The notes under the pieces are model-generated. The model was given only the letters and a program-made list of their open reading frames with translations. It was not told where the DNA came from and searched no databases. This document shows, one piece after another, positions 34,670 through 43,566 of a DNA stretch of 64,000 nt. The stretch spans positions 1 to 64,000 of the forward strand of contig JAICUQ010000001.1 in assembly GCA_025935755.1 (NCBI GenBank), written 5' to 3'. Position 1 is the first letter of the stretch; each line of letters opens with the position of its first letter. The position numbers and the translations under genes were made by a program. This DNA comes from Chthoniobacterales bacterium. GTDB lineage: Bacteria > Verrucomicrobiota > Verrucomicrobiia > Chthoniobacterales > UBA10450.

Positions 34670-34788
34670 TGTCATGTCGAGCGGAGTCGCTGCAACGAAA
34701 TGCGGAGCATGAGGCCAGGGTTTCAAACATCTCTGGAAATCTCAGCGCTCTTGTAATCAGAGATTCCTCGACTGCGCTCGGAATGACA
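34670..34788. repeat. Palindromic mobile-type repeat, TGTCAT...ATGACA (intergenic copy)
   Basis: A 119-bp element with inverted ends: TGTCATGTCGAGCGGAGTCG (34670-34689) against CGACTGCGCTCGGAATGACA (34769-34788). The interior contains GCTGCAACGAA and GGTTTCAAA. A second copy with the same ends and interior landmarks (GCTGCAACGGA, GGCTTTCAA) lies inside the flavin oxidase gene at 42034-42177. It separates the two halves of the mutase. Confidence 0.8.
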
Positions 34789-41713: not shown

Positions 41714-42778
41714 GTGACAGAACGAATTGCAATTATCGGTGCGGGCGTATCGGGGCTCACGTGTGGGGTAGTGCTTGCTGAGCACGGCTACCCCACCAGC
41801 ATTTTCGCAAAACATACCGGGCAGCAAACAACCTCCGGTGCCGCTGCAGCGGTTTGGTTTCCCTACCATGTCGAACCGGCCGAAAGGGTGATTCCCCTGG
41901 CACTCAAAACGTACGACGTTCTTCTAGATCTCGCTCGGTTTGCCGAAACTGGTGTCTCCGTCATCGAGTCGAAGCAGTTCTTGCGCACCGGTGAAATCGA
42001 AATTCCGGATTGGGCCATTCCGCTGGGCGCTTCTGTCATCCCGAGCGCAGTCGAGGCTGCAACGGAGCAGACGAAGTCTCCGGGGGCAGGCTTTCAATCC
42101 CGCGACGTCACATTAAAGGTTTCTCTGCGGGATCCTTCGACTCCTCGCGCGTTCGCGGGATCCGCTCAGGATGACCATCAATTCGCCAGTGGCTTCTCGC
42201 TGCGTACTCCGCTCACAGACACCACGATTTATCTCGACTATTTAGCCGTGCGCTTTCGCAAGGCTGGCGGGGAAATTCACGCCGATGTCTGCTTCGAAAA
42301 AATCGACGAAGTCGATGAAAAATTCGACTTCGTGATCAACTGCGCAGGGATCGGTGCGCGCGAGCTTCTGCAAGACACCGATCTCGAGCCGCACCGCGGC
42401 CAGGTTGCAATTGTTTCAAAGATTGAGGGTCTTTCCAGCGCGATTGTCTGCGATGACGAGCCGCTCATGTACGCGATCCCGCGCAAAAACGATTGTGTTT
42501 TCGGTGGAACCAACGAACTCAGCGACAACCTGTCTGCCGATTCCGTAACCACTTCTCGAATTGTCGCTGAATGCAGTCGAGTGCTGAACATCGAAAAACC
42601 CCGCGTCATCGCTGAGCGCGTCGGGCTGCGCCCGTTCCGAAGATCAGGCGTCCGCCTGGAGCGCGACCAGTCGGCTGATGGCCGCAGAGTCATTCACAAT
42701 TACGGTCACGGCGGCGCTGGATTCACACTCTCGTGGGGATGCGCGCGTGAAGTTCTCGACATTGCGCTGTCTAGTTAG
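41714..42778 (+). CDS. FAD-dependent D-amino-acid-oxidase-like protein with in-frame repeat insertion
   Basis: A 354-residue flavoprotein of the DAO family (oxidative deamination of amino acids at FAD). The Rossmann motif IIGAGVSGLTCGVVLAEHG opens the protein (GTG start 41714, since the nearby ATG runs into TGA), with GAAAAVWFPYHVEP, FDFVINCAGIGARELLQD, HRGQVAIVSKIEG and the C-terminal HNYGHGGAGFTLSWGCA, all typical. Residues about 107-155 are atypical and are encoded by a 144-bp palindromic element (42034-42177) that keeps the frame open; the usual family sequence resumes at FASGFSLRTPLTDTTIYLDY. Whether the enzyme is active is unknown. Confidence 0.88.
   Translation: MTERIAIIGAGVSGLTCGVVLAEHGYPTSIFAKHTGQQTTSGAAAAVWFPYHVEPAERVIPLALKTYDVLLDLARFAETGVSVIESKQFLRTGEIEIPDWAIPLGASVIPSAVEAATEQTKSPGAGFQSRDVTLKVSLRDPSTPRAFAGSAQDDHQFASGFSLRTPLTDTTIYLDYLAVRFRKAGGEIHADVCFEKIDEVDEKFDFVINCAGIGARELLQDTDLEPHRGQVAIVSKIEGLSSAIVCDDEPLMYAIPRKNDCVFGGTNELSDNLSADSVTTSRIVAECSRVLNIEKPRVIAERVGLRPFRRSGVRLERDQSADGRRVIHNYGHGGAGFTLSWGCAREVLDIALSS
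42034..42177. repeat. Palindromic element inserted in frame in a coding gene
   Basis: Begins TGTCATCCCGAGCGCAGTCG (42034) and ends with GCTCAGGATGACC (about 42164-42176); contains GCTGCAACGGA and GGCTTTCAA, as does the intergenic copy at 34670-34788. The interior holds a further hairpin (GCGGGATCC ... GGATCCGC). Length 144 bp by these bounds, a multiple of three, with no stop in the oxidase frame. Confidence 0.75.
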
Positions 42779-43291: not shown

Positions 43292-43566
43292 AAGCGTGCA
43301 GGGGCGATGGTTTCCCGTAATTTGATCAGATGAATTCTGCTCTGTCGAGCAAAGAGATTAACTCCTCCCCCGGAGCTGTGGATCGGCGCGTGCAAAAGCG
43401 GCGCAACAGCGCCGCAGTCCAAAACGTGGCCGTCGTTCAGGAGGTATCTTCGGCTTCGCTTTTTGGAGTGCGCCGGTGCTCCGGCGGCTTTCCGGGCTAT
43501 ACCGCACCACCAGCGTGGGTTGTTAGCCACCGCAAGCCGGCGACCGCTATCAGTCGGGTTCTGTAA
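43292..43566. other. Non-coding gap
   Basis: A plus-strand frame (43330-43566) is open here but has the composition of unconstrained sequence (Ser/Arg/Pro-rich, no motif), so no gene is called. A hairpin-like GGTGCTCCGGCGGC segment near 43475 was seen, nothing more. Confidence 0.35.

Follow-up and report, generated by a model that had tools for sequence, protein, structure and literature searches.

The window, a 64,000-nucleotide stretch of DNA, includes a 144-bp palindromic repeat, here named element A, that is read in frame within a gene coding for a flavin oxidase of the DAO family (Table 1). We consider it likely that element A is a REP/REPIN-type repeat inserted in frame, and that tolerant protein loops such as this one gain, lose and exchange unrelated repeat families. 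In the oxidase, IleRS, TsaD and PheT the same codons are occupied by repeats of more than one family in different species. Judging by its best matches, which were soil MAGs of Verrucomicrobia (AVxx) together with one named Ca. Udaeobacter bin, the source genome is that of a Candidatus Udaeobacter-like verrucomicrobium.

Element A and its host gene

A check of the sequence located element A and a related intergenic element (element B) with the ends and shared motifs that an earlier note on this DNA had described, and the insertion in a flavin oxidase gene reported there is indeed in frame: element A runs from base 3 of codon 107 to base 2 of codon 155. The Pfam DAO match of the host protein aligned residues 4-348, spanning the insert, and the nearest PDB relatives, by sequence profile as well as by fold, were D-aspartate and D-amino-acid oxidases. 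Folded as a single strand, element A reaches −60.4 kcal/mol. Its left head is 95.7% identical to positions 34788-34766 of element B, and the arm of its right head recurs in many copies in the same genome. An intein or an intron was ruled out: the insert is 144 bp, a Pfam search of the host protein found no other domain at the insert site, and element A had no match to a known RNA family in Rfam at the gathering score. Another palindromic repeat is present in the window at 43395-43491 (AAAGCGGCGCAACAGCGCCGC..GGCGGCTTT), with at least four similar copies among the loci sampled from the genome.

Table 1. Location of the host gene, the two repeats and the heads of element A in the window
Feature	Coordinates	Strand	Remarks
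Host gene of element A, DAO family (PF01266)	41714-42778	+	GTG start; 354 aa; Pfam E 5.9e-35
Element A, 144-bp palindromic repeat, subfamily A	42034-42177	+	In frame as residues ~107-155 (SVIPSAVEAATEQTKSPGAGFQSRDVTLKVSLRDPSTPRAFAGSAQDDHQ)
Left head of element A, TGTCATCCCGAGCGCAGTCGAGG	42034-42056	+	22 of 23 bases shared with the right-end head of element B, opposite strand
Right head of element A, read on the minus strand as GGTCATCCTGAGCGGATCCCGCGAACGCGCGAGGAGTCGAAGGATCCC	42129-42177	-	From the sequence; extra hairpin in its loop
Element B, 119-bp intergenic copy, subfamily B	34670-34788		At least 46 matches in its own genome (E≤1)

The REP1 repeat family

Element A has at least 42 matches in its own genome at E≤1, up to 81% identical. 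A search with the 22-mer head pattern GTCATNCNGAGCGNAGTCGANG, allowing up to 3 mismatches, gave 224 matches in this genome and a single one for the reversed control; together with the genomic matches of both elements this rules out a chance likeness between A and B. At 2 mismatches the pattern was found in each of the 35 genomes from the genus, with 12 to 150 occurrences per genome and essentially none for the control, so that the further copies expected by the earlier note exist in abundance. The family, named REP1, was characterized on a sample of about 118 elements of the source genome that is not an exhaustive listing. Among the sampled loci there were 113 full inverted dimers with a median length of 119 bp. 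REP1 therefore consists, as REPs do, of high-copy, dispersed, short palindromes that often occur as inverted pairs (224 heads, 113 dimers).

The lists of best genomic copies of A and B do not overlap, and what the two have in common is limited to the terminal head and a GCTGCAACG..GGCTTTCAA module in the center; they therefore represent different subfamilies. The intergenic “twin” of the earlier note is thus a relative of element A, but one from another subfamily. Both subfamilies include a nested module with the structure GCTGCAACG-hairpin-GAGGCCAGGCTTTCAA, and element A would be a composite non-autonomous REP/REPIN-type palindrome made of two inverted heads, TGTCATNCCGAGCGNAGTCGAGG, and this nested hairpin module. 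The tag of REP1 is (Y)TGTCAT; of 237 heads, 132 have a T and 62 a C before GTCAT. The dinucleotides CT or TT are found before the head in 101 of the 237 cases, and may be part of the element or reflect a weak target preference. With regard to MITEs, which have target-site duplications and are related to DDE-type insertion sequences, REP1 has terminal inverted heads; no consistent target-site duplication was seen by eye in the contexts of L001-L060, and the TsaD junctions were ambiguous.

The source genome includes three short Y1_Tnp genes (L091, L092 and L093) with hairpins beside them. L091 and L092 each have their own flanking hairpins, and L093 is directly followed by two CACCGGCC..GGCCGGTG hairpins that resemble a second, GTAG-tagged family (REP2, see below). 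The inverted pairs of REP1 and the presence of these genes are reminiscent of REPIN/RAYT systems (PMC3116915, PMC2817692), from which REP1 differs in lacking an adjacent RAYT: REP1 was not found directly flanking any of the three Y1_Tnp genes, none of which is a cognate RAYT flanked by REP1, and L091 has REP1 heads at a distance of about 650-800 bp, with other genes in the vicinity. An adjacent RAYT is not required of CGTC REPs, where it is generally absent (PMC3733652). At least the GTAG family may be mobilized by an HUH (RAYT-like) enzyme. The L093 locus (1-760 and 1035-1521) consists of the RAYT-like Y1 gene, the two REP2-like hairpins and then a tandem array encoding PPxGGTxN-like repeats.

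REP1 copies within conserved genes

Most of the sampled REP1 elements are intergenic. At least 10 copies lie in frame within conserved proteins, namely the oxidase, IleRS (L003), PheT (L284), a sarcosine-oxidase-like DAO (L275), RNase D (L256), TsaD (L296), an FAD/Fe-S oxidoreductase (L304), the N-terminus of Mfd (L024), 3-hydroxyacyl-CoA dehydrogenase (L029) and CbiX (L013). The interruption of a conserved region is firm for the first six and less firm for the FAD/Fe-S oxidoreductase and Mfd. Domain matches span the inserts, as in TsaD (PF00814, 143-381) and a DAO protein (7-399). Ten other candidates (L018, L019, L030, L041, L049, L051, L310, L269, L283 and L286), which are long antisense or upstream ORFs, were set aside because no conserved domain was present in their frame on either flank of the insert together.

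The frames and orientations in which REP1 is read differ between genes. The mean number of open frames per dimer is 2.15 of 6, compared with 2.33 of 6 in dinucleotide shuffles; frame openness being no higher than in the shuffles, an adaptation of the elements for read-through is unsupported. The length of 35% of the dimers is divisible by 3, and about a third of the dimers could be read in frame by chance. Element A probably spread through the genome and entered a tolerant loop of the oxidase by a chance insertion that was in frame and free of stops, coding insertions elsewhere presumably being purged by selection acting as a filter.

Other repeats were seen in two of these proteins. After the UvrB-interaction domain, the N-terminal region of Mfd has a very long insert of several repeat-like stretches, with STGASPALLPTSRA..GEGARAP followed by REP1. 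The IleRS of the source genome (L209) has two further in-frame copies of another repeat, ESRNRDGRTT and EERNRDGRATS, at query residues ~55-75 and ~295-310, and some relatives have versions of it at the first of these sites.

Occupancy of the oxidase linker across the genus

The insert lies in the linker that joins the helix WAxxLGA to the strand FxSGF. Outside the genus this linker consists of 13-16 native residues unrelated to the insert, and the segment is accordingly not conserved in homologs that lack the repeat. The earlier statement that the family normally lacks the segment holds for these relatives but not within the genus, where the linker varies from 11 to 53 residues, its DNA is built of recognizable repeat pieces, and most species have some repeat-derived insert. 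REP1 (TGTCATYCCGAGCGAAGTCGAGGGATCTC and TGTCATGTCGAGCGAAGTCGAGACATCTCT) was found in about 19-22 species and the GTAG-tagged REP2 (TGTAGCAACCGGCCTGTGGCCGGTT..GCGCGGTGGCTACA) in 8; the linker is native in L088, L118 and others. The linkers of about 30 related species encode peptides derived from at least two unrelated repeat families, REP1 and REP2. In 205 kb around the oxidase gene of 34 relatives, the REP patterns matched 18 linkers, compared with 2 clear sites elsewhere. The insertion is thus real but not a one-off event, its host site being a recurrently occupied loop.

State changes were counted on single-gene trees of MAGs from which the linker was left out. On the oxidase tree the native, REP1 and REP2 states require a minimum of 9 changes (7-10 over 1000 bootstraps), and REP1 and REP2 alone require 6 (5-7). 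Mixed clades are well supported: L088, with a native linker, is found beside L113 and L114 with REP2 (GTAG; support 95/88), and L064 and L066 with REP2 group with L109, L063 and L065 with REP1 (support 96/96). Native residues are mostly absent from REP-bearing linkers, so that simple insertion without later or concurrent deletion is insufficient to explain them.

Loop states in IleRS, TsaD and PheT

The same behavior was observed in other enzymes. The IleRS site between LRILLGNLYDF and TLIDRW has four states: REP1, a GTAG dimer, a third repeat, REP3 (HPTLSPSRGE..LSPGRGEDEGEG), and no REP. A minimum of 11 changes is needed on the IleRS tree (bootstrap 10-12), and sister sequences differ in state: L211 with REP3 and L216 with GTAG (support 100/99), L209 with REP1 and L215 without REP (98/94), and L226 with REP1 and L227 with GTAG (97/90). 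The commonest REP-free IleRS linker (L221, L223, L219 and others) is a short tandem repeat of CAGGAAANN units (ESGNQESRKKDL) and differs from the DPK..E linker of L217. The TsaD site after RYLLPK has three states, REP1, a GTAG dimer (GTAGGGCGTTTCTGTGAAACGCC..GGCGTCTGACACAGACGCCCTAC) and an empty LKGDFLAD, with a minimum of 9 changes (bootstrap 7-10). In PheT, the source genome and three of its relatives have REP1, and two others have a different repeat-like segment (VGQAHRLPAGGAPAL), giving two families at this site. Some protein loops, in the oxidase and these three other enzymes, are recurrent parking places for small repeats.

The simple view that every loop change is an independent insertion is contradicted by four REP1 copies in IleRS. 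These copies come from distant lineages and are 87-91% identical to each other, above their identity to any other copy in the genus. Because they are closer to each other than to other copies they are orthologous and go back to one insertion, and some of the state changes could accordingly represent loss, replacement or exchange instead of new insertion. In contrast, the copy in the IleRS of the source genome belongs to subfamily A and is similar to other copies of that genome; since its sister L215 has no REP, this insertion looks recent.

The orthology of the four IleRS copies, like the scatter of each state over the gene trees, is what would be expected if homologous recombination had shuffled loop states among Udaeobacter species, with few insertions whose alleles spread horizontally. 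Block recombination carrying the loop left no sign in the flanking DNA. In the 30 bp next to the linker the similarity of same-state and different-state pairs is 0.76 and 0.78 on the left and 0.85 and 0.81 on the right for IleRS, and 0.74 and 0.75, and 0.74 and 0.74, for the oxidase, and within 0-360 bp same-state pairs are no more alike than different-state pairs, which argues against such an exchange. The same codons would in any case have had to receive at least 2-4 founding insertions, and we regard this explanation as unlikely. We infer that new insertion, loss and replacement all contribute to loop turnover, with the oxidase loop probably belonging to a small set of tolerant loops that trade palindromic repeats of several families over species time; the swapping itself may be a treadmill of insertion and deletion. 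A stronger and more tentative proposal, which we think has somewhat less than an even chance of being correct, is that the loops of the DAAO-like oxidase, IleRS, TsaD and PheT are true landing pads, where unrelated repeats are inserted, precisely removed and replaced at a high rate through a site preference or because one palindrome attracts the next. If so, selfish hairpins would continually rewrite protein linkers.

Effect of the insert on the protein

An AlphaFold2 model of the host protein had a mean pLDDT of 89 with the fold otherwise intact, and pLDDT values fell below 50 at residues 113-121, 127-132 and 141-153. The insert is therefore predicted to form a probably disordered loop; a fold prediction to look for a surface loop had been suggested by the earlier note. 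In seven orthologue pairs the oxidase flanks had dN/dS values of 0.12-0.20, indicating that they are under purifying selection. Of the four more diverged pairs, three had a linker dN of 0.6-1.1, far above the flank dN; in the fourth, L102/L105, it was 0.13 compared with 0.11 for the flank.

It is highly improbable that the loops are an artifact of misassembly at repeats in metagenome bins, or that the gene is a pseudogene. The genomes are all fragmented MAGs, assemblies break at repeats, a stop interrupts the TsaD match of G006 (L337), and the frame is broken in the oxidases of G006 (L079) and AV52 (L086/L131); but the linker is intact and in frame at the same codons in more than 30 separate bins from several projects, and the flanks are constrained as described above. 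The frame breaks in L079, L086/L131 and L337 are located near or away from the loop and may reflect either recent decay or assembly error.

Domestication, in which the element-encoded loop or its mRNA hairpin would be functional in the enzyme or its expression, could account for the occupied loop in most species of the genus, for the strength of the hairpin (−60 kcal/mol) and for the three close pairs in which the linker is kept with a dN of only 0.03-0.07. We nevertheless find it very doubtful, given that the linker varies in length, repeat family and reading frame, evolves much faster than the flanks in three of the four more diverged pairs and is predicted to be disordered, and that related genera and L088 retain the short native linker. 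Most economically, the insert is read as a tolerated, probably disordered and dispensable loop, its encoded peptide presumably having no function, while the rest of the enzyme is still under purifying selection.

Relationship to known repeats

Rickettsia palindromic elements (RPEs) are palindromes of about 100-150 bp that belong to several families and are found in frame in unrelated metabolic and information genes as well as in intergenic regions (Ogata et al. 2000, reviewed in PMC10969869). The analogy with RPEs drawn in the earlier note holds for the way the elements work, as at least 10 genes of the source genome carry in-frame insertions in conserved genes that are not abolished by them. 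They differ in phylum and in sequence, the latter as judged through Rfam (no match at the gathering score) rather than by direct comparison. In addition, RPEs are described as encoding a conserved peptide, whereas here several frames and both orientations are read, with an openness no better than that of shuffles, and several families fill the same loop in different species.

GTAG and CGTC REPs are tagged stem-loops, single or as inverted dimers, with hundreds of mostly intergenic copies per genome (Di Nocera et al. 2013, PMC3733652). Some are in frame in DNA-repair and tRNA-synthetase genes, Verrucomicrobiota included, and intragenic REPs are most numerous in Opitutus terrae (GTAG) and R. conorii (PMC3733652). 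REP2 and the TsaD GTAGGGCG..CGCCCTAC dimer fit the GTAG class, while the (Y)TGTCAT tag of REP1 is not strictly CGTC. With intragenic REPs (PMC3733652) and RPEs (PMC10969869) on record the class is already known; the earlier note did not mention that in-frame REPs had been reported for another verrucomicrobium, O. terrae. Different REPs at about the same site have been reported for one pair of Xanthomonas recB genes (PMC3733652); in contrast to this single case, same-site differences in family recur here in four genes and dozens of species. The open-licence literature searched yielded no comparable extent of loops filled by several families throughout a genus, and no papers on repeats in Udaeobacter. 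What sets the present case apart from the known ones is that, within one genus, fixed enzyme loops are occupied by several families with a high turnover.

Selfish repeats that are read in frame have been viewed as rare curiosities, known best from Rickettsia, an obligate intracellular genus. In the present case they occur in essential genes of a common free-living soil genus, and over about 35 species compared the same loops change repeat family again and again. MAG annotations and alignments of these genes should be read with caution, since they include loop sequence that is not homologous. These loops also offer a natural, countable system for measuring the insertion, loss and tolerance of new protein segments.
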